32,424 nucleotides of DNA, from NCBI GenBank assembly GCA_016934595.1, contig JAFGSM010000170.1:1-32424 (forward strand), in the 5' to 3' direction. Below the pieces are notes generated by a model. It worked only from the letters and a program-made list of their open reading frames with translations, searched no databases and was not told the DNA's origin. The stretch is from a bacterium (GTDB taxonomy: Bacteria > SZUA-182 > DTGQ01 > JAFGSM01). A program made the translations under genes and the position numbers. Shown piece by piece: positions 2,329 through 31,919 of this stretch (its first letter is position 1; every line of letters begins with the position of its first letter).

Positions 2329-3291
2329 TTATACAACACCTGCCTTTAAAAGATCATGCAGATGAATAACCCCGGCCGGTTTTTCTTCCGAATCTATGCA
2401 TACAAGGGATGTGATGGCATATAGCTCCATAATCTCCACCGCTTTGGCAGCGATTTCATTCTGTGAAACAGTTTTAGGATTGTGTGTCATTACATCCTTC
2501 ACCTTTTTATCAAGGAGGTCAGGATATCTTTCCAGAAGCCTCCTCAGGTCTCCATCTGTCACTATCCCAACGAATTTTCCATCTTTGTCAATTACACATG
2601 TCATACCCAGGCGTTTTATAGTCATTTCATAAAGGGCATCCCGCATCAATTTGTCATCTCTAACCGAAGGAATCTCGTCATCCTTGTGCATAAGGTCAGC
2701 TACCTTTGTCAGCCTGCGTCCAAGGGAACCGCCAGGATGGAAAAGGGCAAAATCTTCCTCTTTGAAGCCCCTTCTGGCTAAAAGGGCCATAGCCAGGGCA
2801 TCGCCCAGGGCCAAAGAAACCGTTGTGCTTACAGTTGGCACAAGGTCGAAAGGGCATGCCTCTTTCCGTATGGATGCATCAAGAAAACAGTCGCTATTCC
2901 TGGCCAATGTTGATTTTATTCTGCCGCTTATACATATCAAGGGCAGACCAAATCTTTTTATATAAGGGATGAGCCGTTTTATCTCCTCTGTCTCGCCGCT
3001 GTTTGACAAGGCAAGAACCACATCGCCCCTTACCATCATGCCCAAATCTCCATGAATCGCATCAGCAGGATGAAGGAAAAAGGCAGGGGTCCCTGTGCTT
3101 GCGAGCGTGGCCGCTATCTTTTTGCATATAAGGCCGGATTTGCCCATGCCCGTCACCACGACCCTGCCGCTGGAATCAAATATTATATCCACGGCGTGTT
3201 CAAAACTCTCGTCGATCCTGTCCTTAACTTCCATGATCGATCTGGCTTCAAGTTCCAGAACATTTTTCGCCTGTGTCAAGATATCGTTCAC
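2329..3291 (-). CDS. kdsD: Arabinose-5-phosphate isomerase (KpsF/GutQ/KdsD), SIS + 2 CBS domains
   Basis: SIS domain VVVTGMGKSGLICKKIAATLASTGTPAFFLHPADAIHGDLGM plus two CBS repeats. The ORF track starts at 3327, but a GTG at 3291 with AAAGGAA upstream makes a 4-nt GTGA overlap with the upstream gene and is the more likely start. Confidence 0.92.
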   Translation of the reverse strand: MNDILTQAKNVLELEARSIMEVKDRIDESFEHAVDIIFDSSGRVVVTGMGKSGLICKKIAATLASTGTPAFFLHPADAIHGDLGMMVRGDVVLALSNSGETEEIKRLIPYIKRFGLPLICISGRIKSTLARNSDCFLDASIRKEACPFDLVPTVSTTVSLALGDALAMALLARRGFKEEDFALFHPGGSLGRRLTKVADLMHKDDEIPSVRDDKLMRDALYEMTIKRLGMTCVIDKDGKFVGIVTDGDLRRLLERYPDLLDKKVKDVMTHNPKTVSQNEIAAKAVEIMELYAITSLVCIDSEEKPAGVIHLHDLLKAGVV

Positions 3292-4784
3292 TGGATTTCC
3301 TTTCGATCTTTTACATCCTTCACACATCTAAACCCCGCGCAAACATACCCTCCATCAGGGCATCCACCACGACGGAATGTGCTCCTCACTTCATCAGGGA
3401 GGCTATCCCAGCCTCCTCCCCTTAAAACATGCCATGATCCATCCTGCGGCCCTTCTGGATTTCTGTATTCGGACTTGCCGTAATAATCGGTGCTGAACCA
3501 GTCAGAACACCACTCCCATACATTACCGGCCATATCATGGCACCCGTAAGGGCTTGCGCCTTCAGGACAGCTTCCAACCGGAAAAGGGCCCGCTGATGAA
3601 TCTTTGCCCCCGGCTCGGCATTTTCCCTCGGACCATTCATTCCCCCAGGGAAATTTCCGTCCATCCATGCCTCTTGCAGCCTTTTCCCATTCCGCTTCCG
3701 TAGGAAGTCTCTTGCCTGACCATACAGCATAGTCATTGGCTGCCTCCCAGCTTATGCCGGTTACAGGTTGATCAGGCAGGTCAAAACCCGGTCTGCCCCA
3801 GGTAGTCGGGGGACGATTGCCTGTAGCCTTTAAAAAGATCATGTATTGGGCATTTGTGACCTCGAATCTGTCAATATAAAATGCGTCCAGATAGACCTCA
3901 TGGACTGGCCCATCTTCCTCGTGACTATCTGAACCCATCTTAAACTTCCCCTCAGGTATAAGCACCATTCCGTTAAGATTTTTCATGCCTGTTTCTTCGG
4001 TCACCGTCTTTTGACTGATAGCCGTTTCCCCTCCATCTGATTCATTAAACGCTGTTTCCCCTTTCATCTTTTTTTGGATGACTTCCATGAATGCCTTCAT
4101 GTCTTTAATCTCGCCACAGTCGCTAATATCGATCCTTTGGCCTTTTTGCATACCTCCCATATTCGGCAAAACAGCATTTTCCCTGCCTTCTTCATCCTCA
4201 CCCATCTGACCAGGGATCCCCCTTGCAAGGCGCGCAGCCAGCTCATCAATACGTTGTTCCAGGGTATGGATTTCATGATGGCATGATATCTGATCTGTAG
4301 CCTCCACTTGACCTGTAGCTATATCGATAACCTTGACACTTATTGTATACCTGTCTTCGAGCTTATTGACCAGACCGATAAGCACCTTGTCAACCATCAG
4401 TATATTCCCTAACTCTATCGCCGCCTCAATATCCGGCATGCCGCATTTTTGCAGAAAATGCAGCGTGCCTCGAGAATCAAACGAGGCAGAATGACATTCG
4501 GAGCTTCTGCAGCCGCTAGGCCTCAAAAACCCCTGAATGTTAAGGATATCATCCATCTCCTTCTTTTCCATCACCTCAAATTTTGCGACATGCCCGAGGT
4601 GTCCTCTCATAAGTTCGGCAATGTTGCCTCCAATCCGTCCCGCGAGGTTTGAAGATGTCTCAAGGTCTATAACGGCTATTTTTATCTTGCCAGAAATCTG
4701 GGAGATTGCAACAATGGGTATAAAGGTGAGAAGGATAAACAACCATATCCATTTATTATTGAAGAAGCGTATCTTGTCGCTCAT
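3288..4784 (-). CDS. Protein with N-terminal CsgG/LpoB-like domain and C-terminal formylglycine-generating-enzyme fold (SUMF1/FGE-sulfatase family) domain
   Basis: Signal/TM WIWLFILLTFIPIVAISQISG; then IKIAVIDLETSSNLAGRIGGNIAELMRG...FEVMEKKEMDDIL (CsgG-like); then SUMF1 signature MVLIPEGKFKMGSDSHEEDGPVHEVYLDAFYIDRFEVTNAQY...GKRLPTEAEWEKAARG...GNVWEWCSDW...GFRCVKD. Confidence 0.85.
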   Translation of the reverse strand: MSDKIRFFNNKWIWLFILLTFIPIVAISQISGKIKIAVIDLETSSNLAGRIGGNIAELMRGHLGHVAKFEVMEKKEMDDILNIQGFLRPSGCRSSECHSASFDSRGTLHFLQKCGMPDIEAAIELGNILMVDKVLIGLVNKLEDRYTISVKVIDIATGQVEATDQISCHHEIHTLEQRIDELAARLARGIPGQMGEDEEGRENAVLPNMGGMQKGQRIDISDCGEIKDMKAFMEVIQKKMKGETAFNESDGGETAISQKTVTEETGMKNLNGMVLIPEGKFKMGSDSHEEDGPVHEVYLDAFYIDRFEVTNAQYMIFLKATGNRPPTTWGRPGFDLPDQPVTGISWEAANDYAVWSGKRLPTEAEWEKAARGMDGRKFPWGNEWSEGKCRAGGKDSSAGPFPVGSCPEGASPYGCHDMAGNVWEWCSDWFSTDYYGKSEYRNPEGPQDGSWHVLRGGGWDSLPDEVRSTFRRGGCPDGGYVCAGFRCVKDVKDRKEIQ

Positions 4785-8129: not shown

Positions 8130-8618
8130 ATGAAAAGAACCATCCTTGTATTAAGTATATTAGTAATTGCATTATGCCTTTCATTCTCTGGATCTGAAGC
8201 ATATTACGGCGGTTATTACGGTAGCAGTTATTACGGCGGCCTGTACGGTAGCAGTTATTACGGCGGCCTGTACGGTAGCAGTTATTACGGCGGCCTGTAT
8301 GGCGGTTATGGCGGCCTGTTAGGCGGTTATGGCGGCCTGTTAGGCGGTTACGGCGGCCTGTTAGGCGGTTACGGCGGCCTTTACGGCGGATTGTATGGCG
8401 GGAGCTATGGCGGCTATGGTTACAGCCCGTTCAGCTACAGCAATCTATACTATCCCGTTTCTACAGCCGGCGGTCTGACTTACCAGGTGCCATTCCTGCA
8501 AATCGCCCCGCTCCTGGGTGTGGCCGGTCTTTATAACCAGCTATTCCCGAATCTGTTTAATCCGACTATTGGCACGACTCTTACAACTTCAACTCTACCA
8601 GCGACACCGGTTATTTAG
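8130..8618 (+). CDS. Secreted Gly/Tyr-rich repeat protein
   Basis: Signal peptide MKRTILVLSILVIALCLSFSGSEA, then tandem YGSSYYGGL and GGYGGLL repeats; SD GGAGGAAGG just upstream of ATG. Confidence 0.85.
   Translation: MKRTILVLSILVIALCLSFSGSEAYYGGYYGSSYYGGLYGSSYYGGLYGSSYYGGLYGGYGGLLGGYGGLLGGYGGLLGGYGGLYGGLYGGSYGGYGYSPFSYSNLYYPVSTAGGLTYQVPFLQIAPLLGVAGLYNQLFPNLFNPTIGTTLTTSTLPATPVI
8217..8297 (+). repeat. 27-bp tandem repeat x3 (TACGGTAGCAGTTATTACGGCGGCCTG)
   Basis: Three identical 27-bp units encoding YGSSYYGGL. Confidence 0.95.
8301..8384 (+). repeat. 21-bp tandem repeat x4 (GGCGGTTAYGGCGGCCTGTTA)
   Basis: Four near-identical units encoding GGYGGLL; the last one diverges to CTTTAC. Confidence 0.95.
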
Positions 8619-8645: not shown

Positions 8646-8686
8646 TAAAAAGGGCGCAGAAAAATGTTCTCTGCGCCTTTTTTATT
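8646..8686. terminator. Bidirectional rho-independent terminator
   Basis: AAAAAGGGCGCAGAaaaatgtTCTCTGCGCCTTTTTT between convergent genes; A-rich on one flank and T-rich on the other. Confidence 0.85.
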
Positions 8687-11555
8687 TTAAAAGAGCAGCC
8701 ACCTGGTCCAATAGTATATATGCCTCTGTATAATCGGGCTTTATCCGGACGGCTTCACGCAGATATCGCATGGCATCCTCATAAAATCCAACCATGAATG
8801 AGCAGTATCCAAGGCCGTAATATGCCTGAAAGTTTTGAGGGTCAAGCGAAATCACCTCATTATACTGCTGCATCGCCTCCTGATAGCGCTGCTGATTAAA
8901 ATATGCAACCCCCAGATTTATCCGCGCATCGATGTGACCGGGGTCGATCTTAAGCGCTGCGACATATGACTCTATGGCCTTGTCAACCGAACCTTTGCCA
9001 AAATAGGCTATCCCAAGATTAATCAACGCCTGCAGATTGTCCGGCTTTATGGCAAGGGCCATTGTATATTCCTGGATTGCCTCTTCAATAAGCCCTTTGC
9101 TGTAATAAGCGACCCCCAGATTGACCATCGATTCTACATTGTTTGCGTCCAATTGCTTGGCCAAGATATAATTGTCGATCGCATTATCAATCAATCCGTT
9201 ATGAAACAAGGCGATTCCAAGATTGACATATGCCCCTGGATTCTTATCGTCCAAATCAATAGCCTTATTGTATTCCCTTATAGCGTCATCCAGCCTGCCA
9301 AGGCTAAAATAGGCAATGCCCAGGTTATAATATGTCTCAAAGGAATCAGGATCTAGTTTTATGGATTCCTTAAACTGCTCCACTGCCTCGTCAAGCCTTC
9401 CTTCCTTGATCAATATTGTGCCCAGGCAATTGTAAACCTTTGCAATGTTCGGGTTTGTGCTTATGACCTGACCGATCTCGTTGCGGGCCATATCATACTG
9501 ACCAGCCTGTATATACATAGTTGCAAGGTTTATCCTTGCCTCCTCATGATTCGGATCAAGATAAAGCGTCCTTCTGAACAGGTCCTCTGCCTCTTTTAAT
9601 TTGCCCAATCCCAGATAAGCGCTGCCCAAATTGTTATGGGCGTCAATAAAATCGGGGTTTTGTTTTAATGCCTTCTGTATAGGATCTATGGCTTCGGAGA
9701 ATCGCCCCTGCGCCACGTATATGCTCCCGATATTATTGTAAGCCGCAGCGTAGTTAGGCTCCAATTCAATCGCCTTGTTGAAATAATACATGGCCTGGTC
9801 ATAATCCTTCATCATGTAATAAACGACACCGATATTGTCGTATGCCTCCAGATAGGAAGGATTCAGATCTACGGCCACCCTGAAATTTTTGATAGCCTCA
9901 TCCGTTTTGCCAATCTTGTTATAGATCGTTCCGAGGTTGTTGTATGCATTGATATATCCAGGATCCAGTCTGATAGCCTCCTCCAGTTCGTTTATCGCCA
10001 TATCCGTCCACCCTTTTTTGTCATAAATATACCCCAGTACAAAATGGGTAAAGACGTCGTTTGGATTCACCTTTAAAAGCGCCTTGAATTCCTCAATAGC
10101 CTCATCAAAATCGCCAGATGTATAATAGTATGTTCCGCGATTAAGGTAGTCCAGCAACCCAATCATGTCTTTAGGATCCGGATATGAGGCATGTTCCTTA
10201 TCCCCTGCCTCAACAGGAGCGGTCCAGATATAGCCAAGGCTTTCCAATTTACCCTTGGTGTCTGTATCCAGGTTCATGTGCGCATATTGAGATATCTGAA
10301 GGGATTCAAACTCCTTTATCTTCTCATCAAGGAGCTGTTCCAAAACCTTCACGATATCAGGCCGCTTTTTATAGAGATCGGTCAGTTCATTGGGATCATC
10401 CCTAAGACAATACAGTTCAGGTCTGGGTGCCCTTATGTACTTCCACTCCGGTGTCCTTATCCCCTCCAGAGGGCTCCACCTGTGATTATAAAGCGGATAA
10501 AACGTCTCGCAATACTGTTGTGTCACTCTATCATCCAGCCTCCCAGGGGTAAAGAGCGAAATGCCATGTTTATGGCCATCATACTTGATGCCTGCCAAAT
10601 CTATCAAGGTTGGAAAGATATCCGTCAGATTTACCTCTTTGTCTATCACCAGCCCCTGGGGCACCTTGCCCGGAATGCGAAAAATGAGCGGCACATGAAG
10701 CGTGGCATCATAGATAAAAATGGCGTGTGTCTTTTCTCCATGTTCCCCAAGACCTTCGCCGTGATCTGCTGTAAAACAGATTATCGTGGAATCAAAAAGA
10801 TTTAAATCCTTCAAGGCAGTAAATAGCTTTCCCATCGCTATATCCACATAAGAAATCTCCCCTTCATAGAGATTATCCGCGTAATCCTCTTTAAAAGGGG
10901 ACGGAGGGTCATAAGGCGCGTGAGGATCAAAGCAGTGTATGAATGCGAAAAAGGGGCGGTCATCCTTTTTCCCTATCCACTCAACAGCCGATTCTATAAC
11001 CTTTTCGGCAGGCCTCTCATTATAAAAAAATGCATCTTTATCATTATCATCAGACTTCAGCCTGTCATCATAAACCTCAAATCCCTGATTAAGTCCAAAC
11101 CTGGAGTCAAGCACAAATGCGCCTATAAAAGCCCCTGTCCTGTATCCCGCTTTCCCAAAAAGCTCTGCCAGTGTGACATTGGTCTCATCCAGCCTGAATG
11201 TCCCGTTATTCCTGACCCCATGCCCAACTGGAAAAAGCCCTGTCAACATTGTAGAATGTGAAGGCAATGTCACAGGCACAGGGGTATATGCCCTGGAAAA
11301 CATGGTCCCTTCCGATGCCAATGCATCGATATTCGGAGTTTTGGTTCCCTTATGGCCATAACAACCGAGATGATCGGCCCTCAGCGTATCGATAGATATG
11401 ATAATGCAGTTGACCCGTGGGCCAGATGGTTTAAATTTAGAAGACGGGATCCCCAACATATTATGGCAGCCTGTAAACAATAAAGACAGCGCGCAGATAA
11501 GACAGATAAGAGAAATTGTTTTGTTATTGATTTTTAATCTAAAAAGATGCATCAT
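8682..11555 (-). CDS. Lipoprotein: sulfatase/alkaline-phosphatase-superfamily domain fused to a long TPR array
   Basis: Lipobox LLFTGC; NCIIISIDTLRADHLGCYG...PVTLPSHSTMLTGLFP...FTADHGEGLGEHGEKTHA; then roughly a dozen 34-aa TPRs (e.g. AYNNLGTIYNKIGKTDEAIKNFRVAVDLNPSY). Start refined from 11621 to the ATG at 11555, preceded by AGGAGG. Confidence 0.9.
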   Translation of the reverse strand: MMHLFRLKINNKTISLICLICALSLLFTGCHNMLGIPSSKFKPSGPRVNCIIISIDTLRADHLGCYGHKGTKTPNIDALASEGTMFSRAYTPVPVTLPSHSTMLTGLFPVGHGVRNNGTFRLDETNVTLAELFGKAGYRTGAFIGAFVLDSRFGLNQGFEVYDDRLKSDDNDKDAFFYNERPAEKVIESAVEWIGKKDDRPFFAFIHCFDPHAPYDPPSPFKEDYADNLYEGEISYVDIAMGKLFTALKDLNLFDSTIICFTADHGEGLGEHGEKTHAIFIYDATLHVPLIFRIPGKVPQGLVIDKEVNLTDIFPTLIDLAGIKYDGHKHGISLFTPGRLDDRVTQQYCETFYPLYNHRWSPLEGIRTPEWKYIRAPRPELYCLRDDPNELTDLYKKRPDIVKVLEQLLDEKIKEFESLQISQYAHMNLDTDTKGKLESLGYIWTAPVEAGDKEHASYPDPKDMIGLLDYLNRGTYYYTSGDFDEAIEEFKALLKVNPNDVFTHFVLGYIYDKKGWTDMAINELEEAIRLDPGYINAYNNLGTIYNKIGKTDEAIKNFRVAVDLNPSYLEAYDNIGVVYYMMKDYDQAMYYFNKAIELEPNYAAAYNNIGSIYVAQGRFSEAIDPIQKALKQNPDFIDAHNNLGSAYLGLGKLKEAEDLFRRTLYLDPNHEEARINLATMYIQAGQYDMARNEIGQVISTNPNIAKVYNCLGTILIKEGRLDEAVEQFKESIKLDPDSFETYYNLGIAYFSLGRLDDAIREYNKAIDLDDKNPGAYVNLGIALFHNGLIDNAIDNYILAKQLDANNVESMVNLGVAYYSKGLIEEAIQEYTMALAIKPDNLQALINLGIAYFGKGSVDKAIESYVAALKIDPGHIDARINLGVAYFNQQRYQEAMQQYNEVISLDPQNFQAYYGLGYCSFMVGFYEDAMRYLREAVRIKPDYTEAYILLDQVAALLK

Positions 11556-11721
11556 TATCCTCCTGAAATAATATTCCGATAGTTTTAAAAGTTCTCTAAA
11601 AAAAATAATTAACCGAAACATATTGGGAAGTCACAAACAAAAAATATAACATATCGGATTATGGAAGGCAATTGAAGGCCATCCTTTTTTACCATGAAAT
11701 TTGGTACGAAAATAGATTCTA

Positions 11722-21749: not shown

Positions 21750-23138
21750 CTAGAAATAATGGATTATGGATGAATAGAGGGAATGTTGTTCAACCTCTGC
21801 GTTGATCCTCTGACCAAGCATAGATTCGGCGCCCATTTTTTCTCCGAAACGGTATTGATAGGCGATATCAAGGGCGAAATCCTTCCAGACAATGCCGCTT
21901 CCTATGCTTGCCCCGTAGAAGTCATCCACCCTCCCTTCGGCAGGCTCTGGATCATAAAAGATGCCAAATCTCAAGGGCACGAGAAGCCCCTTTTTATAGA
22001 GCAGGTATTCGGCCCCAAGCCGAATTTGTGTGGCAGGCTTAATGTTCGCCTCATGTTCGGGCTTATAATTGATAGGGCTATAACGTCCTGAGGATGTGAT
22101 CATTAGATACTCATCCCAGTGTGTCCGGTAGATATCCATGGAGAGTATGAGATAGTTGTCCATCAGACCCAGGGCAGCGCCTGCGCCGTATGAAACAGGC
22201 ATGTTTAATCTGGATCGGCTGGTATAATAAGATGGAGGGATGTAATCGTAGTCTGTAGGATCTGCAAGGTTCCTTGACATATAGACGTACTTTTGTGTAT
22301 GATCAATGCGGGCGCGGAATGGGGTCTTGATCACCCCTCCGATCTTTAGTCCCCCGTTTGTATGCCAGAGAAACCCGAAGTGGATGTTGAATCCGGAGAA
22401 TTCGTATCTCTCGTAAAGCTGGCCTGATGACCTCCACGGATATCCGAGCGCCATTCCCTCTCCCTTTATTGTGGATATGTTTTCCCAGTGGTTGGCAAAA
22501 AGCCTGTCAGCCCAGATATTTGCTGTAATGCCGATGGAAAGGGAAGGGACAATCTGGACTGCAAGGGCAGGGGAAAGCGGCGCAAGTGATCCTCGCTGTT
22601 TTTCATGGAGGGAATAATCCATGTCAAGGACGCCCTCGTCGTATACCTTCCAACGGGATTGCTCTTCGAAGGAGAAGGCATAGAGGTGTTGATGATTCAA
22701 TGAAAAGACCATAAGCCTCGAGAAGAGGCTGAAAGGTATTGCAAGGCTCAGATAGTTCAAGCGGAGACGGTCTTCTGAGAAGTCATCGATGTCTCCGGAC
22801 ACCGTGGATGTGTCATACGTCCTTCTGCCGTAATCATGAGAGATAACACAGGATATCTCTGGCCGCTTCAGGGTGATCAACCCTGAGGGATTCCATGAGG
22901 CTGCTGTGGCGTCATCGGCAATGGCGATAAAGGCGCCGCCCATGCCCAGGGCCCTTGCCCCTGATCCCACAGGATTCGGGCTTGAGCTTATCCTCATCTG
23001 TAAAAGGATCTCGGGGCCGCCATCGGATCCGAAGAGGGATGCAGGGAGCATAAATAAAAAAAGCAATACAATGGATAGACAACCCGCAGGATAAAAATTG
23101 GGGCTGATATGTCGAATTTTTTGAGAATGAACAGGCAT
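21750..23138 (-). CDS. OmpP1/FadL/PorV-like outer-membrane beta-barrel protein
   Basis: Signal peptide; GARALGMGGAFIAIADDATAASWNPSGLITLKRPE; C-terminal aromatic ...IIHYF. Confidence 0.85.
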   Translation of the reverse strand: MPVHSQKIRHISPNFYPAGCLSIVLLFLFMLPASLFGSDGGPEILLQMRISSSPNPVGSGARALGMGGAFIAIADDATAASWNPSGLITLKRPEISCVISHDYGRRTYDTSTVSGDIDDFSEDRLRLNYLSLAIPFSLFSRLMVFSLNHQHLYAFSFEEQSRWKVYDEGVLDMDYSLHEKQRGSLAPLSPALAVQIVPSLSIGITANIWADRLFANHWENISTIKGEGMALGYPWRSSGQLYERYEFSGFNIHFGFLWHTNGGLKIGGVIKTPFRARIDHTQKYVYMSRNLADPTDYDYIPPSYYTSRSRLNMPVSYGAGAALGLMDNYLILSMDIYRTHWDEYLMITSSGRYSPINYKPEHEANIKPATQIRLGAEYLLYKKGLLVPLRFGIFYDPEPAEGRVDDFYGASIGSGIVWKDFALDIAYQYRFGEKMGAESMLGQRINAEVEQHSLYSSIIHYF

Positions 23139-23286
23139 ATAATATCCTTATTTTTCCCATGAAGGAATATTCAAATTAGCGCCCTTCGGGCGGACTAAAA
23201 AACCTGCCCGAAAACCCGCATAAAAAAAATGAAAATTCCTATGCGATTAAATTAATAACCTTTGATAACATTGACACAGGGGATAT

Positions 23287-24462
23287 TCAATCCTCCAGGA
23301 TTTTTATAAAGCACAGGCCGGCATTCTCAAGATCGATACCAAGTCCCTCCGGATAGGCAAGGCCGCCTGTGATGATTAATTCCCCTGCATATTCGCCCTC
23401 TTTATTTATCATATCCCCATTGAGCCCTATCGAAAGACGGATTGCCTGCTTAGAGATAATCTCCAAAGGCAAGGCGCTCCAGGCATATTCCTCATAGATA
23501 TAAATATAGAACTGAGCGACATCGTAAATCTCCTGATCCCCTGAGACATATAAGGAGAACGTCAGGGTGGCCATGTCGATCGGGACATAGATATGTGCCC
23601 TGAACACGCCATAGGGGAAAAAAAAACCTCCGGGTGTGCCTGTGATGATCTCAGGGGAGTTTGCATCCAAGGGCGCAAGCCATGTGAAATAAGGCCATTC
23701 CCCGTCTTTTTCAAGTATATCGAGCGTGATCTGTTTGTCCTTTGTTGAATCCCTGCCCTGAATAAGAAGGGTGGCGGTGTCCGGATCCGATGCATTTTCT
23801 ATCCCGTCCCCGTCGATATCCCCTTCGATTTCTTCGTAATCAAGGGAACCGTCGCCATCCTGATCCTGATCGTCAAGCTCCAGGTAATCAAAGAGGATTG
23901 AATCGTTGTCCGTTAGGGATTTGTTCTTGAGTATGAGCGTGTCTTCCTCATGCGCCCCTTTTCGGATATAACCTAAAGGTATTTCAGTCGTTGCATCAGG
24001 GGCAGGGAAAAAAGCGGGCAGCATCAAATCTTCGGAAAGGGCAACCCCTCCCTTGATCAGGATAAGTTCCTGTGTAAAGTTTGTCACCGAGGACTTCGCC
24101 TTGACCCGAAGGACAGGAGATCGAAGGTCTCCTGGATAGTCAAAACTGATGCGTATCTCCTTGGGGTTATATGATACCTCCTGTGGCCAGATCCTGCATG
24201 GGAAGGATTGCCAGTCAAAGGCGTTTGGGTCTTGTGGGGGGGTAAAGCACACCACTTCCTGATTGATATTGGGATCATGCCCTGTGCCTCCTGGAAGCCC
24301 GAATTCGCTTGAACTTCCGTCGTTTTCTCCGATCCTCCAGACCGTTTTTGCGGATAAACGGGATGAAGGAATGCCTATCAACAGGGATATCAAGAAAAAA
24401 GTGCTTATGACCCCATACCCCTTGCCCAGACCACGTTTATGCCTGTTCGTGCACCCTGTCAT
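23287..24462 (-). CDS. Exported protein with Asp-rich Ca-binding-like (thrombospondin type 3-like) segment
   Basis: N-terminal hydrophobic signal; DDQDQDGDGSLDYEEIEGDIDGDGIENASDPD. ATG overlaps the upstream stop (ATGA). Confidence 0.7.
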   Translation of the reverse strand: MTGCTNRHKRGLGKGYGVISTFFLISLLIGIPSSRLSAKTVWRIGENDGSSSEFGLPGGTGHDPNINQEVVCFTPPQDPNAFDWQSFPCRIWPQEVSYNPKEIRISFDYPGDLRSPVLRVKAKSSVTNFTQELILIKGGVALSEDLMLPAFFPAPDATTEIPLGYIRKGAHEEDTLILKNKSLTDNDSILFDYLELDDQDQDGDGSLDYEEIEGDIDGDGIENASDPDTATLLIQGRDSTKDKQITLDILEKDGEWPYFTWLAPLDANSPEIITGTPGGFFFPYGVFRAHIYVPIDMATLTFSLYVSGDQEIYDVAQFYIYIYEEYAWSALPLEIISKQAIRLSIGLNGDMINKEGEYAGELIITGGLAYPEGLGIDLENAGLCFIKILED

Positions 24463-26069
24463 TCTTTTACCCCTATGACGTAAGCGCCATCAGGCGAGAG
24501 GGGGAAATTCCCCCCTGCTGGCCTTCCGAAGAACATGTACGCCGACTCCCAGGCCCCTTTACCCCCTTGCGCATTATTGGAACGGCTGATGCTTGTTACC
24601 CCGTTCGGGTCTTCGCTGTGTATGTATTCATATGAGGAATAGGGGCCTGTCTGTGGATCGTATGGAACGGGGCAGATATTGATCCCGGGAACAATTTCCG
24701 GTATGCCGGAAGGGAGCCACGACTGCAATTCCTGATATATGGTCTCAGGGATCTGCTTATAGATCATGTATCCTGTGCCGTATTGCAATGTAAAATTTTC
24801 ACCTCGCGCATTGGCGTCCCAAAAAAGCCAGCGTTTGTTTTCACGGTCATATCCCCTTATGGATTGCCAGTCATCCAGGAATTGTACGCAAAAATCATTG
24901 GCTGTATATGGATCATCAAGGTAGAAGGGGAGAAGGACCAACTGAGGAGATACTGAACATCCTATGGTATATAGGCAGGGGTGCGTACCGTTCAAAAATT
25001 CATCTATATTTACAAATCCGTCCAAATCATTTGTGTCTAGCCATTTTGGAAATATCCCGTTCGGATCGACCGCACCCTGCCATATATCATAGAGGATCTC
25101 CAGATAAAAAAGGGTATCGTTGGGATCAAAGGGCGGCGCAACGGCCTGGTCTATCCGGATGTCCCCAATCCTCGCTATATTTCTTTCCATTAGATCGATA
25201 GAAAAAGGGGGGATCAGATGGCTATTGGGATCGCCTTCTTCAGAGACTGTCAACTCGTATGAGCTGTTGCCATTGAGACCGTCTATAAAAAACCACCCGT
25301 CGATCCTTGAGGGATCAAGGGGGTATTCCAGGAATTCTCCTAAACTGTCCGTCATATCCTCCCTGGCGTCCGCCCCGTTTTTTACGGATATACGAATCCT
25401 GTTTATACCGTTTCCCTCCTGGTTTATAACACGCCCGTAAACCCCTCCCGACAGGGTCATACACGCAGGAGGCATAGCATGCATCCAGAACCTGTATATG
25501 AGCGCATTCGCATCCGCAGGGGACACACTGCCTGAAACGAACACAGGCTCAAGCTGCAGGGTATAGTATCCGTTCTGTGAACATTGCCAGGCATAGGAAC
25601 CGTTTTTGAGGTCCTGACCGCCCCATATATTGTTTACCCCCTTTGAATCGAAAAGTGACATGCGCACCTTGTTGTCCAGTTCCGTAACAGTATATACCTC
25701 TATGAAGAATTGATACTGAAACAGTTTCAGCCCATAGAAGTATATCCAGTCCCTGTCTGTGGCTGTATGGAACGTGCGGACCTGAGGCAGAACCTTTCCA
25801 TCGTCTATCTGAACGGCAACCGGTCTTGCCTGATCCGTGAGGTCGTCCGGCTCAAAACGGTCTGCGACCTTCGCTTCAATCTCTGAGGGGTCAACCTCTT
25901 CCATTTCCGGGGGTTGAATAACGTAAGGCTGGCTTATCCCGTCTTGTGCCGCAGCCCTCGAGTGAAAAAGGGAAATATCTGTTGTCAATAAGGCCACTGC
26001 AAGAAATAAAAATATATGAAGGTCATGTTTACAACACATTCTAAAGACATGTTTTTTTAAGGATTTCAT
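24459..26069 (-). CDS. Exported protein with PPC-like and carboxypeptidase-regulatory-like domains
   Basis: Signal peptide ending RAAAQ; ADRFEPDDLTDQARPVAVQ...TFHTATDRDWIYFYG (PPC-like); GGVYGRVINQEGNGINRIRISVKNGADAREDMTDSLGEF; EF/dockerin-like NDLDGFVNIDEFLNGTHP. Confidence 0.7.
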   Translation of the reverse strand: MKSLKKHVFRMCCKHDLHIFLFLAVALLTTDISLFHSRAAAQDGISQPYVIQPPEMEEVDPSEIEAKVADRFEPDDLTDQARPVAVQIDDGKVLPQVRTFHTATDRDWIYFYGLKLFQYQFFIEVYTVTELDNKVRMSLFDSKGVNNIWGGQDLKNGSYAWQCSQNGYYTLQLEPVFVSGSVSPADANALIYRFWMHAMPPACMTLSGGVYGRVINQEGNGINRIRISVKNGADAREDMTDSLGEFLEYPLDPSRIDGWFFIDGLNGNSSYELTVSEEGDPNSHLIPPFSIDLMERNIARIGDIRIDQAVAPPFDPNDTLFYLEILYDIWQGAVDPNGIFPKWLDTNDLDGFVNIDEFLNGTHPCLYTIGCSVSPQLVLLPFYLDDPYTANDFCVQFLDDWQSIRGYDRENKRWLFWDANARGENFTLQYGTGYMIYKQIPETIYQELQSWLPSGIPEIVPGINICPVPYDPQTGPYSSYEYIHSEDPNGVTSISRSNNAQGGKGAWESAYMFFGRPAGGNFPLSPDGAYVIGVKE

Positions 26070-26081
26070 ACGTTCACTTCC

Positions 26082-28250
26082 TCACTTCATTATCACACGG
26101 TCCCCGGCCCTGAGCCCGCGAAGGGCTTTTTTATGGGCAGGAAGCACAAGAGAATGCCCCCTGGTTGCCTCCTCAATCCTACCTTCGCCAATGATCTCCA
26201 AATCCCCTGCGAAGGCAGGCTTGGTTATCGTGGATTCATCCTCCCTGACCCTGTACACCCAGAGCTTCATACCCCTTTTTAGACGATCCTCTGTTCCGAG
26301 GTTTATCACAAAAGTCTCATCGTGTATCTGCACGATCTCCCCCTGTATCAGCGGGAACTCCTCAACAAGCCTCTGCGAAAGGCCCTTTGATACAAAATCT
26401 ATATCACCTGGTTCCTTCCAGTGGTTGTATATGTTTTGTATGCACAAAATCTCCTGTGTCTCCACATCGATTAACCTGGCATATATCTCAAGGCAGCGGT
26501 TCTGTCCATCCCAGTGTTCATAGAATGACCCTGCAAGCAGGACCTCCGCGCCTATGCACATCCCTATCCTGACGGCAGTATTAGGATCGATAGAACTCCC
26601 GCAGGCAAGGTTCAATTCGCGCATCACAGCATCGATCCTCTCCCTCTCCATGATCCTGAAACGTCCAGTGTCAAAAAGGGCTGCCCTTAATTTTTCTGTT
26701 ATATAAGCCACCGAGCCCTGAGCAGGCGGCGTGAATATGGGCATATCACCCTCCCGAACAATATTAAAGGGGAGGATTGCCATTGACCACCTTCTCCCGA
26801 TCCTTTCTGTTTCGGATACCCTGTATTCAACCCATACACTCCTGGGGGGTGAGATTCCCTTGCTGTCCTGAGCATATATGGTGATTGGATTTTTACCTTC
26901 CTCCAGTGGTATTGTCCGTGTAAAGGAGAAACGTATCACGTCCCCGGATATGTAAGAACGATATCTATGCAGAAGCCTTCGAAAACGTGGTATCAGGGCC
27001 TCTGATTCATCCCGCGAAAGGATCGATTCCTCATTGATCCAAACGTTCAGGATCTCCCTGCGTGATTCGACCCATCCGGTTATGACCACACGCGGTTCAA
27101 AAACCATAGACGGACAGGGTTCAACATGGATTACTGGGCCGTCCGCATCATTCATCGCAAAAAGGGGTATGACACGGTTCGCACATACCATAATCCCGCC
27201 TGACCTGGAAGGCGAGGCATCCTGCCGGAGATCCCACAGGGGGCGAATTACGCCCTGTGTGGCATTTCCTGCCCTGTCCAACGCATAAAAGGTTACAGGT
27301 GAATAACAGGGTACGCTTTTTTCAAATTCATATACATCCCCTTCTATATCCCCTTCATGCACTAAAGGCAACTCCTCATCAGCTATGATGAATCTTTCCA
27401 TCCCTGATGCATCGTATACAATCCCCCTGAGTGTGGTCATCGCGCCTTCAGGCGAAAGGTCCTCGTCTTCGCTGGATACCGGCGCAAACATGACTACCGG
27501 GCCTTGCTGGTCAAGGATCACACAGAGGCGACTTGCCGTGCGGTTGCCTGCAAGGTCTGTCGCCTCGAAATGCAATATATTCTCTCCGGTGTTCAGGGCT
27601 GCCTTTCTCTTAAAAGAAATGACAGGCTGGGCAAGGTCAACGAATAGCCGTTCACCCTGTATAACGATATCTGATACAAAGTAATCGTCCCTGGCCTCCC
27701 CCTCTATCGTATATACCGGTTGGGAGGTATAGATAACGGTATCCTCGCCATCCGTTGCCCCCGAAAAAGAGATGCAGGGTGGCGAATTATCAAGCCCTGT
27801 CCCCTCCAGCCATCGCCTCCTGGCCTCGTTGAGGTAATAGGTTGCCCTGGCTGAGTCTGCCGATGCCAGGGATTGCGAGAGTTCATCGATCGCCTCCTGT
27901 ATCAGTCCCTGGTTGAGGTATACGATACCAAGTTCCCTGTGCGGGAAGTAATCAATAAAGTGCATCCCGTATGTCCTTGCCATCCATTTGTCTTTCGAGT
28001 TCTGTCTTATGGCGGCACGGAACTCCGTCACCGCCTTATCCTGGCATCCGCCCCTGGCGTAAGCCAGGCCGCTTCGGTAGCCGCATTCCCAGTCGTAACG
28101 GCGCCTGCATTCTGAAGGAGGCTCATCGTGTAAGCAGGGTGCACGTTCTGCCACTGCGCAGCCTGATATAAAGGAAATCCCAAGGGCAAGAATAAGATAA
28201 ATGATACACATCTTGATGTATTCACTGCGCCTTTCCATCCTATTTTCCAT
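26082..28250 (-). CDS. Lipoprotein with TPR-like region, Ig-like repeats, CsgG-like domain and FlgT C-terminal-like domain
   Basis: Lipobox FISGC; YIDP-type TPRs; ARDDYFVSDIVIQGE... Ig-like; RWSMAILPFNIVREGD...ALFDTGRFRIMERERIDAVMREL...GAEVLLAGSFYEHW CsgG-like; EIVQIHDETFVINLGTEDRLKRGMKLWVYRV. Start moved from 28328 to 28250 (or 28238) because the ORF extension translates an intergenic repeat (FFVIPAKARTHD). Confidence 0.78.
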   Translation of the reverse strand: MENRMERRSEYIKMCIIYLILALGISFISGCAVAERAPCLHDEPPSECRRRYDWECGYRSGLAYARGGCQDKAVTEFRAAIRQNSKDKWMARTYGMHFIDYFPHRELGIVYLNQGLIQEAIDELSQSLASADSARATYYLNEARRRWLEGTGLDNSPPCISFSGATDGEDTVIYTSQPVYTIEGEARDDYFVSDIVIQGERLFVDLAQPVISFKRKAALNTGENILHFEATDLAGNRTASRLCVILDQQGPVVMFAPVSSEDEDLSPEGAMTTLRGIVYDASGMERFIIADEELPLVHEGDIEGDVYEFEKSVPCYSPVTFYALDRAGNATQGVIRPLWDLRQDASPSRSGGIMVCANRVIPLFAMNDADGPVIHVEPCPSMVFEPRVVITGWVESRREILNVWINEESILSRDESEALIPRFRRLLHRYRSYISGDVIRFSFTRTIPLEEGKNPITIYAQDSKGISPPRSVWVEYRVSETERIGRRWSMAILPFNIVREGDMPIFTPPAQGSVAYITEKLRAALFDTGRFRIMERERIDAVMRELNLACGSSIDPNTAVRIGMCIGAEVLLAGSFYEHWDGQNRCLEIYARLIDVETQEILCIQNIYNHWKEPGDIDFVSKGLSQRLVEEFPLIQGEIVQIHDETFVINLGTEDRLKRGMKLWVYRVREDESTITKPAFAGDLEIIGEGRIEEATRGHSLVLPAHKKALRGLRAGDRVIMK

Positions 28251-28265
28251 CAGTAAATCGTGGGT

Positions 28266-28336
28266 TCTGGCTTTCGCCGGAATGACAAAAAATTGATTTT
28301 CATGCCCCTTTGTGAATCGAAGACTCATGGGCTTTT
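28266..28336. repeat. Composite intergenic repeat, second copy
   Basis: CTGGCTTTCGCCGGAATGACAAAAAATTGATTTTCATGCCCCTTTGTGAATCGAAGACTCATGGGC, near-match of 19834-19915. Confidence 0.75.
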
Positions 28337-28372
28337 CACTATATTATCTTAACGGCACAATGTCTTTTGCCG

Positions 28373-30409
28373 TTACCTTTTATCTTCCATCCTTTTTTCA
28401 AAGGATGAGATGATTTGTTCGCCAAGCGCCCTGCCCGCATCCTTTATGTTATGCGGGTCAAAATATTGCGAAGCCCGCCCTGTTATGGCCGTCGTCTTTG
28501 TATCCACAAGGCGGAGGAACGCCTCTTTCCTCCGTGTTAATTGAGGAACGCGGCCAGGACGCTCGAATGTCTTTACGAACAGGATTCCGCGGGCATCAAA
28601 TATCTCGCCGAAAGAAAAACGGAGCTTATCTTCCGTGAGATTCAAGGCATTCAATTCCAGTTCCCTGATCACAAAATCGAGGCGCTGCCTTTCAACGACT
28701 GTATAGTCCGGCTGGCCATCAAAAAAAGTAATCAATTCCTCTATAAGCAGTTCCGTGTCTTTATCGCTTGCCACTGGATCGGAAGGTATAATACACAGTG
28801 TGTATTTCCCATGGAAAACCTTAGTGGATAAGGGAGGAAGGGCACCCTTGTCCAAAACTGAATTTGAAAGGTTGTGTCCCTTTCTCATTTTATCCATGAT
28901 CCGTTCGACGATCTCCCACTTCTTTTCCTCCCACTCAAGGTCTGTGTATTTATTATAGCCTCCTTTATCGTTGGTTGCCGGCCGGCCTTTATACCTAATG
29001 AAAAAAAGGAACATGAGCATGATCGCTATAACGCCGATGGCGATACCTTTGCCCAATCCCCTTGACAAATGCAATCCTTTCGATGATCTTGTGGTTATAC
29101 GACCGGAGGATTCCATGCTGTTGTAGCCGCTTCCATCTGAGGCAGGGACGGACGATGATTTTGCACGTGTATCCGCTGCGGCGCCGCAGGAAATCACTGC
29201 GGGTTGACCATCCGCCTGACCATCCTCCTGTATGTCCCGAACCTGGCGAAATTCTCCAGACTCCTTATATGTTTGCGCCTGCCTGAAATAGCAGGTTGTC
29301 GGGTCTCCATAAAGCATGTAATGCGCCCATTCAAGACCGTTTTTGCCATCTTCTTCGCCGCCCTGTATGAGCTGTATTCGTGCCTTCCGAAGCGCCTCGC
29401 CTATACTCGATGACTGGGTCATCAATTCGTAAAAATGGAGTCCAAGTGAGAGGCCGGAGATGTCACGCACATCCTGAAACGTGCCTATATAGTGCTGCAC
29501 GCCGGAGCGCAGAAAGGCGTTTACCAGATCATAGGCGTAGTAGCGGCCCCAGTCAACCTGATCCTTTTTTGACCATTCCGATGTCTGGCCGCTCTGACAG
29601 GCATTCGAGAATATCAAAGCAGGGAGCGGTCTTTTGCATCCCGCCAGCTCCATTATCCTTTGAGCGGTCAGAATGCCGTCTTCGAGCACCCAGCCGCTCA
29701 AATCCGGATTGTCCTGATTGTATTCTGCATGACCTGCATAATGGAGGATGTCGTATTCAAATAACTGCCTTGAGACCATCTTTGAATCTATGGATGTCGT
29801 TATTATATCGACATCCATAAGGTCCCCCCTGTTTTCCAGCTTTTTTAGAAGAAGGTCGCCTTCCTGATAGGATTTCGGCAGATCGTTTCTGGGGTCGGCA
29901 AGGATCAGCATCCTGAGCCTCCGGACCTCCGGTGACCTGACGCTCACCATGGGATGTGAGGTGTAAACCCTTCTTCCCATATTGAACCGCAGGCAGAAAA
30001 ACTGCTCGCCATCATAGGCAAGCTCCCAGGGTATATTGAGAAGGGATTCGCTGATTGTGAGGTAAAGGTTTTCAGAGCAGGCATCGGCAAGCCTTTTCTT
30101 GATCTGCACGGGAAAAACGCAGTTATACAAATCCATGCCCGCCTGCTGTAATCTTTTTGTTATACCTGCCTTGTCATATTCAGGGGAATAGGTGGAGGCA
30201 TACATGAGGGAATATATCTCAGCAGAGACGGCCTTGAGCCTTGAGGGAGAAACGCCGGTGTTTATATATGATTGGAGCGGGCCATCCTCCCCTTTCATCT
30301 TTTCCTCAAAAAAGATACTCAGTTTTTGGCCTGAGGCATCATACAGGATCTTGAGGTCTATAAACGTAATGCCGTATTGGCCCTTTGTATAAGGATTGGA
30401 AAGGCTCAT
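28373..30409 (-). CDS. CHAT-domain (caspase-like) protease with TM segment and C-terminal CsgG/LpoB-like domain
   Basis: CHAT core ILHYAGHAEYN (His) and ALIFSNACQSGQTSEW (Cys), GVQHYIGTFQDVRD, ARIQLIQGG...WAHYMLYGDPTT; TM KGIAIGVIAIMLMFLFFIRY; then YTLCIIPSDPVASDKDTELLIEELITFFDGQPDYTVVERQRLDFVIRELEL. Confidence 0.88.
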   Translation of the reverse strand: MSLSNPYTKGQYGITFIDLKILYDASGQKLSIFFEEKMKGEDGPLQSYINTGVSPSRLKAVSAEIYSLMYASTYSPEYDKAGITKRLQQAGMDLYNCVFPVQIKKRLADACSENLYLTISESLLNIPWELAYDGEQFFCLRFNMGRRVYTSHPMVSVRSPEVRRLRMLILADPRNDLPKSYQEGDLLLKKLENRGDLMDVDIITTSIDSKMVSRQLFEYDILHYAGHAEYNQDNPDLSGWVLEDGILTAQRIMELAGCKRPLPALIFSNACQSGQTSEWSKKDQVDWGRYYAYDLVNAFLRSGVQHYIGTFQDVRDISGLSLGLHFYELMTQSSSIGEALRKARIQLIQGGEEDGKNGLEWAHYMLYGDPTTCYFRQAQTYKESGEFRQVRDIQEDGQADGQPAVISCGAAADTRAKSSSVPASDGSGYNSMESSGRITTRSSKGLHLSRGLGKGIAIGVIAIMLMFLFFIRYKGRPATNDKGGYNKYTDLEWEEKKWEIVERIMDKMRKGHNLSNSVLDKGALPPLSTKVFHGKYTLCIIPSDPVASDKDTELLIEELITFFDGQPDYTVVERQRLDFVIRELELNALNLTEDKLRFSFGEIFDARGILFVKTFERPGRVPQLTRRKEAFLRLVDTKTTAITGRASQYFDPHNIKDAGRALGEQIISSFEKRMEDKR

Positions 30410-30422
30410 TGCGCTTCCCTTT

Positions 30423-31166
30423 CTATGCTATTTTAATGGATACATCCCCGATGATCTGCCCGCCATCACGGATGCCGATCGTATAGTCGCCGGAAGGGAT
30501 GCCCTGGAATTGAAGTGGATTGTTTTCAAAGGTGGAGGAGCGAAGCAAGCGGCCTGACCTCATAAGCTCCACCCTGATCCTTTTGCCTTCTTTTTTTTCA
30601 GACAATGGAAAGACCTCGCATTGAATCGCGCACCTTCCCTCTTCCTCCTCCATGACCCGAACCCTGATCCTGCAGTCTTTGTAGGTTTTTAAAAATGGGG
30701 GCAGTGAGAGCGCCTTTTTATCGGAGCCGCCCCGCACAAGGGCAGGTATCAACCCATTCCAAAATGGGATATACTCTGCATCCGTTTTTATTAATGTGAG
30801 ATGTCCTCCGGCCCAGGCCAGGGAAATCCGCAGGGGTTCTATAACGGCGTCCAGGAAATTGCCTAACCCCTTTTTCTCTGTAACTACAGGTTCCATCCCT
30901 TCACGCACCCTGGATATCTCCGCCTTTTCCATCGCCTCTGATTCAACTACATCTATGACCAGCCTCAGACAGGAGGAACATTTCAAAAGATGCTCCTGAA
31001 CCCTTTCGTTTTCAGCATCAGGAAGACGGGATTCAAGATAAAGGGAGACCGTCTCATCGGAAAGGCAACTATTGCTGCTATCCTTGTCATGCCCTGTGTC
31101 TCCCCTCTTTTTCTCTTCCCTTGCAAAGGCATGATACATCAAATCTTCAAAAATTTTATCTTTCAT
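30423..31166 (-). CDS. zf-HC2-type anti-sigma factor
   Basis: CLSDETVSLYLESRLPDAENERVQEHLLKCSSCLRLV (HxxxCxxC); directly downstream of an ECF sigma gene; no clear TM segment. Confidence 0.8.
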   Translation of the reverse strand: MKDKIFEDLMYHAFAREEKKRGDTGHDKDSSNSCLSDETVSLYLESRLPDAENERVQEHLLKCSSCLRLVIDVVESEAMEKAEISRVREGMEPVVTEKKGLGNFLDAVIEPLRISLAWAGGHLTLIKTDAEYIPFWNGLIPALVRGGSDKKALSLPPFLKTYKDCRIRVRVMEEEEGRCAIQCEVFPLSEKKEGKRIRVELMRSGRLLRSSTFENNPLQFQGIPSGDYTIGIRDGGQIIGDVSIKIA

Positions 31167-31307
31167 TATGAATCCCCTATAAAAAAAGATATATAATTGA
31201 TCTATGACGTTTTTTCTTTATCTTTATAATATATAGAGACAAAAAATGGGGTTTTCCTTTCAGTTTACCAAAACCTGCCCCTGTGTTTTTAATGGTGCCA
31301 CGTTAAT

Positions 31308-31919
31308 CTATGAGTCATGGACGTTCATATACCTCTTTATCTTCTCTTCAGCCCTGTGTCTCAGAAGATGCGTATTCTCCAGGGAAGTGTTCATTACTCT
31401 GGATATCTCGTCTGGAGGCAGCTTCTCGAACCAATACAGCCTTGCAAAAAGCCTCTCCTGCCTGGATAATTTGTTTTCAACAATCGACATGATTCTTTCG
31501 AGTATCTCGTTCCTGCTTATCTCGTCAAACGTATCCCCTGATGAATGCATGCTGGTATCTTCAGACATAATGGGCGCCTCGTCAATAGATGTTTCCTGGG
31601 GGTGTCTTGTCAACGACCTGAGATATCCGGCTGCGGCATGACTTCCGCAAACCCTGAGCCAGGTCGCAAGCGAACATTTCCCCTCCCATTTTCTTAATAT
31701 ATAAAAGTCCTTTTCTATAAATGATGTCCAGACAACCTGCCTGCAATCGTCAACCTCCTCTGCAGCCAATATGGATGAATAACGAAAAACGGCCCTTTTC
31801 ACCACAGAGGAAACAAGCAGCGCGAACCGTTCATAGAAGATCTCCCATGCCCATTCCTTGCCGTTCATGCACTCACAGAGAAGATCCTTATCGGAAATAT
31901 CCTTATTGTGAAGGTTCAT
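31308..31919 (-). CDS. ECF-type RNA polymerase sigma factor
   Basis: Sigma region 2-like WEIFYERFALLVSSVVKRAVF...VDDCRQVVWTSFIEKDFYILRKWEGKCSLATWLRVCGSHAAAGYLRS and region 4-like LSRQERLFARLYWFEKLPPDEISRVMNTSLENTHLLRHRAEEKIKRY. Confidence 0.88.
   Translation of the reverse strand: MNLHNKDISDKDLLCECMNGKEWAWEIFYERFALLVSSVVKRAVFRYSSILAAEEVDDCRQVVWTSFIEKDFYILRKWEGKCSLATWLRVCGSHAAAGYLRSLTRHPQETSIDEAPIMSEDTSMHSSGDTFDEISRNEILERIMSIVENKLSRQERLFARLYWFEKLPPDEISRVMNTSLENTHLLRHRAEEKIKRYMNVHDS

Follow-up and report, generated by a model that had tools for sequence, protein, structure and literature searches.

Can a caspase-like protease gate a sigma factor outside a CRISPR system? The question is raised by seven genes on contig JAFGSM010000170.1 (assembly GCA_016934595.1), a bacterial sequence of 32,424 nucleotides that was analysed as a whole and is called the window below. 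The genes are all located on the - strand and encode, in this order, an extracytoplasmic function (ECF) sigma factor, a soluble ZAS anti-sigma factor, a CHAT protease with a transmembrane (TM) helix and a CsgG/FlgT-like domain, a lipoprotein with TPR, Ig-like and CsgG domains, two exported proteins (exp1 and exp2) and a PorV/FadL-like outer-membrane barrel. An earlier note on this DNA had picked out the cluster, whose seven co-directional genes are present as described there, and had suggested that the protease cleaves the anti-sigma in response to an envelope signal and so switches on the exported proteins. The sigma, anti-sigma and CHAT genes constitute a conserved cassette in at least five bacterial phyla, and it is rather probable that they encode a CRISPR-free, protease-gated ECF sigma pathway spanning the envelope, the cut most likely falling in the anti-sigma linker at R145.

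Conservation of the cassette

The sigma gene (31308..31919, 203 aa) and the anti-sigma gene (30423..31166, 247 aa) are separated by 141 bp, and the CHAT gene (28373..30409, 678 aa) follows the anti-sigma gene after only 13 bp. Two further cassettes are found in the same genome, one with the order sigma, anti-sigma, CHAT, lipoprotein, barrel and exported protein (locus L006) and one with the order CHAT, lipoprotein, sigma and anti-sigma (L007), and the fourth CHAT protein of this genome is a TPR-CHAT with an unrelated neighbourhood. The L006 order is repeated in four genomes of the same taxonomic order, and variants of the cassette are present in other genomes of the class and in a different phylum.

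CHAT homologues were searched for with an alignment as query, a single CHAT sequence having matched nothing, and loci were chosen by CHAT similarity, with an H-x3-H motif as part of the selection but blind to the neighbouring genes. The search gave 80 loci from named genomes, belonging to Deltaproteobacteria/Desulfobacterota, Nitrospirae, Nitrospinia, Omnitrophota and Schekmanbacteria, with one from Myxococcota. There are 83 unique CHAT proteins, and the 67 with at least 1.5 kb of upstream sequence are the base of the neighbourhood counts. Both a sigma and an anti-sigma gene are located on the same strand as CHAT in 49 of these 67 loci, with gaps between CHAT and anti-sigma mostly of -40 to +20 bp, while a homologue of the lipoprotein is found within 6 kb in 42 and a homologue of the barrel in 33. 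The adjacency, on whose conservation the earlier note had made its idea depend, is thus kept well beyond close relatives and in several phyla. In the reverse direction, with the anti-sigma as query over 386 genomes, 18 of the 21 strong matches (E below 1e-14) have a CHAT gene in the same cluster; two of the remaining three are located at contig ends and one is a true orphan (G003:C597). The 18 include a divergent TPR-CHAT (L172), and weaker matches add another (L174). Found again in two paralogous cassettes and in many phyla, the arrangement is far beyond chance. Three cassettes of the cultured Desulfonema magnum 4be13 are among the loci found. At two loci three to four CHAT genes stand in tandem behind the anti-sigma gene (L087 from 9989, L100 from 9983), which suggests a protease cascade or several proteases acting on one switch.

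The earlier note had seen no CRISPR component, and this stands: no Cas gene was recognised among the open reading frames of the window by reading, and no array was found in the cassette loci. Neither of the features that mark a type III-E CASP locus, Cas7-11 and the CRISPR array, was thus recognised here. A Cas1 fragment, the only Cas1 match in the genome, is located elsewhere at a contig end (G000:C265:6-161, L178). CRISPR-like signals beside CHAT genes of Desulfonema magnum and Desulfococcaceae HSG8 were rejected, being head-to-tail tandem repeats without variable spacers; these repeat arrays directly follow CHAT (L125:11842-13023, L109:12450-12730 and L114:4152-4900) and consist of units about 52-86 bp long, in which inverted stretches resemble hairpins.

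The CHAT protease

The CHAT protein has its CHAT domain at residues 90-369 approximately, followed by a long low-confidence linker, a single predicted TM helix (residues 453-471, 28997..29053, hydropathy 2.37) and a C-terminal domain. The CHAT domain is well supported by PF12770 (E=3e-28, 99.5 bits against a cut-off of 24), and there is a further match to Peptidase_C25 (PF01364, E=1.2e-5); CHAT proteins of Omnitrophota likewise cross-score with C25, and weakly also with C50. When the AlphaFold2 model was compared with known structures by Foldseek, Csx29 (3e-12), separase (5e-11), DdvA (1.5e-6) and also SAVED-CHAT were matched, so that the likeness to Csx29 drawn in the earlier note holds at the level of the fold. 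The same run gave matches to FlgT, CsgG and PelC, which fit the C-terminal tail; this tail gets no Pfam call in the window protein, and in relatives it scores for CsgG or FlgT_C.

A predicted His-Cys dyad is complete. Cys271, in the motif SNACQSG (codon 29597..29599), had been named as the catalytic residue and is present in 83 of 83 family members, although cysteine was no selection criterion. The putative partner His227, in the HxxxH motif HYAGH (29729..29731), is also present in 83/83, but partly by construction, as loci had been selected on H-x3-H. That Cys271 and its surrounding motif are kept throughout suggests that catalysis is under selection, and the protein is predicted to be a peptidase.

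A TM helix follows the CHAT domain in 74 of the 83 proteins and an N-terminal hydrophobic segment was found in none of them. The bias in lysine and arginine, 46 versus 13, favours the CHAT side as cytoplasmic by the positive-inside rule. The proteins after which the CsgG, LpoB and FlgT-like domains are named have these domains in the periplasm. The CHAT domain is therefore probably cytoplasmic and the CsgG-like domain periplasmic. In about half of the family a class III nucleotide cyclase (PF00211) is fused N-terminally to CHAT, for example in L059, L062, L074 and L090 (CHAT proteins over 830 aa), and some members also carry TPRs after the TM helix; a cyclase fused on the CHAT side fits a cytoplasmic CHAT domain.

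The sigma and anti-sigma factors

The sigma factor is identified by TIGR02937 (sigma70-ECF, E=9.7e-15, 54.6 bits against a cut-off of 42.9), and the profile of its family aligns with the structures of SigH, RpoE and SigW. The anti-sigma has an above-cut-off match to zf-HC2 (PF13490, E=1.7e-6) and the zinc motif H-x3-C-x2-C, here C34...H59-x3-C63-x2-C66 (30969..31067), which is 93-95% conserved in 61 homologues. In the AlphaFold2 model the ZAS domain is followed by a low-confidence linker of about 70 residues (pLDDT about 37-66) and a C-terminal beta-sandwich, mostly above 90. A phmmer search of the PDB with the window anti-sigma gave zero matches, and Foldseek gave nothing below E 0.001. By hydropathy no segment of TM strength is present in the window protein, and the highest 19-residue value is below 1.7 in 60 of 61 anti-sigmas and 1.76 in one, compared with 1.77-2.99 in membrane controls; the TM helix of canonical membrane anti-sigmas, which undergo regulated intramembrane proteolysis (RIP), is thus absent.

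One linker residue stands out. R145 (codon 30732..30734, motif LV-R-GG), located between the ZAS helices and the beta-sandwich, is identical in 97% of its column in the 61 aligned anti-sigmas, and in 61/61 when two residues of slack are allowed; the column ranks 2 of 211, on a par with the zinc ligands, against a mean of 29% for the 68 other columns of the linker. It is usually preceded by V, I, A or L and followed by G or S, and its distance varies from 54 to 100 residues to the zinc site but only from 12 to 18 to the beta domain. The motif is also present in 9 of 9 anti-sigmas outside the discovery set, in one with a shift of one column. At L069:3657-4337 an anti-sigma homologue lacks the zinc-finger ligands and keeps the linker arginine (CCVRGGG). 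Separase and gingipain R cleave after arginine. A conserved arginine in a flexible linker, encoded beside a clan CD protease gene, suggests that R145 is a candidate P1 residue.

The lipoprotein and the barrel

The putative lipoprotein (26082..28328) has the lipobox ISGC and, by Pfam, CsgG (6e-8), LpoB, TPR and Ig-like (Glucodextran_B) domains. By the longest open reading frame it begins 44 bp after the CHAT gene, and about 125 bp after it if the first 27 residues are not real. The N-termini of these lipoproteins seem to include a translated dispersed repeat, in the window at 28247-28328 (FVIPAKA..) and in L007 near 4028 (FRRKPESR..), and for this reason the true start is probably located downstream of 28328. 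The barrel gene (21750..23138, 462 aa) matches NF033709 (PorV_fam, E=1.2e-14) with 54.7 bits, short of the curated 90 bits for PorV/PorQ, and PF03349 (Toluene_X, E=4e-7) just under the cut-off, and the protein is named PorV/FadL-like only. A lipoprotein or barrel gene is found beside CHAT in 9 of the 15 loci without a same-strand sigma and anti-sigma. As they accompany CHAT even in those loci, the lipoprotein and the barrel look like partners of the protease and not just members of the regulon, and most simply they would be its sensing end. The earlier idea that the exported cluster is the regulon is altered in this respect, and also for exp3 (below).

Proposed mechanism and alternatives

As long as the cell is at rest, the soluble anti-sigma would keep the ECF sigma factor bound through its ZAS domain, and the CHAT protease would be anchored in the inner membrane, its caspase-like domain facing the cytoplasm and its CsgG/FlgT-type domain reaching into the periplasm. 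The latter would touch the like-folded domain of the outer-membrane lipoprotein, a presumptive partner of the PorV/FadL-type barrel, and a change at the outer membrane would alter this contact and activate the CHAT domain. The flexible linker of the anti-sigma would then be cut, most likely after R145, so that the ZAS part and the beta-sandwich come apart, and sigma would be freed as the ZAS fragment is lost or degraded. Gene linkage, conserved catalytic residues, topology, the conserved linker arginine and the fold matches were all computed; from these we infer activation, cleavage and its site, the signal and the regulon. Of the earlier proposal, the protease-gated sigma factor has gained a conserved module without CRISPR, the Csx29-like fold and a candidate site, while the part played by lipoprotein and barrel has changed. 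The complete outside-in relay in at least five phyla, from barrel and lipoprotein through the CsgG-like domain and the cytoplasmic caspase-fold protease to a cut at the arginine site of the anti-sigma, is put forward more tentatively than protease gating as such, as quite possible rather than probable.

Several observations weigh against protease gating by a cut at R145. The orphan anti-sigma found in the reverse search carries the arginine motif, and no CHAT gene is beside it. Pairwise distances measured for sigma, anti-sigma and CHAT are correlated across 51 triples (Mantel r 0.77-0.86; 0/1000 permutations), which speaks for the pathway, but this co-variation partly reflects shared ancestry. 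Conservation does not single out an acid in the S1 pocket that would explain arginine specificity, as E183, D220 and D316, the acids that are conserved, are presumably general to CHAT domains. Csx29 is not known to cleave after arginine, and specificity would thus vary among CHAT proteases. Three of the seven membrane anti-sigma controls also align an arginine at the site, though by forced alignment. R145 could instead be a docking or structural residue, docking being the main alternative. A dyad search ahead of the sigma genes gave no shared ECF promoter motif.

The strongest competitor, itself unlikely, is that CHAT acts on another exported or cytoplasmic substrate and is merely co-regulated, with the ZAS protein sensing redox as in RsrA/ChrR. 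ZAS anti-sigmas can indeed be redox sensors (PMC8999054), and the 9/15 loci where CHAT accompanies lipoprotein or barrel without a same-strand sigma and anti-sigma would agree with a separate substrate, but the anti-sigma is seldom seen without CHAT (3/21, two of them at contig ends), the gene order is tight, and the linker arginine is conserved like the zinc ligands and is even kept in the L069 homologue without the zinc motif. That the arginine docks as a pseudo-substrate in the groove of a non-proteolytic CHAT, so that an envelope signal changes binding and not cutting, is improbable. A conserved arginine would fit a docking motif equally well and DdvA, whose active site is reportedly incomplete, is an existing CHAT-bearing anti-sigma (8rot), but the presence of Cys271 and its motif in 83/83 proteins points to selection for catalysis.

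Slightly less probable again is an anti-phage defence switch like CASP or CalpL/T/S that would respond to a signal from phage or from a nucleotide and not from the envelope. Dedicated proteases do release sigma factors in CRISPR defence (PMC10028731, PMC11417357), and many relatives carry the fused class III cyclase, of which the one example tested scores weakly with Pycsar cyclases in PADLOC. The window proteins, however, have zero matches in PADLOC, the cassette loci contain tandem repeats only and no CRISPR arrays, and it is the envelope that is suggested by the predicted periplasmic CsgG/LpoB domains together with the lipoprotein and the barrel.

If protease gating from the envelope is correct, CHAT-gated sigma release would be a general signalling device and not a CRISPR speciality, and envelope signals would have a new route into the cytoplasm. 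The relay would then form a class of its own in transmembrane signalling, distinct from two-component systems, FecIR and RIP, with cyclase-fused variants. Substrates are known for few bacterial CHAT proteases, and here both a substrate and a single residue in it are predicted.

Exported proteins and neighbouring genes

The gene for exp1 (24459..26069, 536 aa, with a sub-threshold CarboxypepD_reg-like match) follows the lipoprotein gene after 12 bp and overlaps that of exp2 (23287..24462, 391 aa) by ATGA, and the barrel gene follows after 148 bp. Exp1 is related to exp3 of the paralogous cassette, and no homologue of exp2 was seen in the other cassettes. Exp3 is conserved in the taxonomic order and is the exported protein most often located downstream in the related genomes. 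In four of these a sigma54-like -24/-12 element (AGGCAYTRATKTTGCA) is located about 110-140 bp upstream of exp3 (L039:13550-13565, L040:10722-10737, L041:3406-3421 and L042:4126-4141); the pattern is rare ahead of other genes (3/377) and absent ahead of the sigma, anti-sigma, CHAT and barrel genes. Exp3 is thus probably transcribed separately and, having its own sigma54-like promoter, may fall outside the ECF regulon. In a search for SprA, directed at type IX secretion, no control gave a match.

Sulfatase-TPR fusions of 979 aa are found less than 25 kb from two of the three cassettes, at 8682-11621 in the window (by Pfam) and at L007:9568-12507 (by reading), and a CsgG-like/FGE-sulfatase protein is encoded at 3288-4784 of the window. 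The third cassette is adjoined by a run of small exported low-complexity proteins rich in P/A/G/Y (L007:8257-14383), and a similar small Gly/Tyr-rich exported protein is encoded in the window at 8130-8618.

Comparison with known systems

Protease-gated sigma control is itself already known, with Csx29/Csx30, CalpL/T/S and DdvA as precedents, and CHAT proteins and sigma control are brought together in the literature on CASP/Craspase (PMC10028731), on type III CRISPR effectors, SAVED-CHAT among them, and in a review covering ECF54 (PMC8999054). The present cassette was not found described in the literature searched, which mostly excluded subscription papers. What plausibly is new is a membrane-anchored cytoplasmic CHAT protease, a soluble ZAS anti-sigma whose linker carries a conserved arginine, and a likely outer-membrane sensor.

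In DdvA of Myxococcus xanthus the TPR-CHAT is reportedly periplasmic and its active site incomplete. The DdvA/DdvS pathway (PDB 8rot, 8rlz; Sci Adv 2024 adp1053, as cited in PMC12288465) likewise combines a ZAS anti-sigma, to which our ZAS profile matches (E=7.5e-4), with an ECF sigma factor and a CHAT fold, but DdvA is one transmembrane polypeptide with zf-HC2 at its N-terminus and CHAT, whereas in the window these are separate genes, for a soluble anti-sigma and a CHAT protein that is probably cytoplasmic and has a full predicted dyad. In the type III-E CASP system (Cas7-11/Csx29/Csx30/CASP-sigma) a CHAT protease also gates an ECF-type sigma factor through a cytoplasmic inhibitor, which Csx29 cuts (PMC10028731), and Csx29 is the best structural match of the window CHAT model; CASP, however, has Cas7-11 and a CRISPR locus, both lacking from the window cassette, and Csx29 has a TPR region where the window protein appears to have a membrane anchor and a periplasmic CsgG-like domain. 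The inhibitors also appear to differ, Csx30 as against ZAS with a beta-sandwich, and among the 50 fold matches listed for the window anti-sigma, none of them strong, there is no Csx30. CalpL/CalpT/CalpS shares the dedicated protease that cuts a cytoplasmic anti-sigma and frees an ECF sigma factor (PMC11417357), but CalpL is a Lon-type SAVED protease triggered by cyclic oligoadenylate, of a family unrelated to the window CHAT. In the ECF54 context, genes for CHAT, subtilase and carboxypeptidase are located near the ECF sigma gene and proteolysis has been proposed (PMC8999054); ECF54 is described there as lacking an anti-sigma, whereas in the window a ZAS anti-sigma gene lies between sigma and CHAT. 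With RseA/DegS/RseP and the other RIP systems the proposed pathway shares the general scheme of an envelope signal, anti-sigma proteolysis and ECF sigma release, but RIP anti-sigmas are transmembrane and are cut in the periplasm and the membrane, while here the anti-sigma is predicted to be soluble, and a single protease spanning the membrane would cut it in the cytoplasm.

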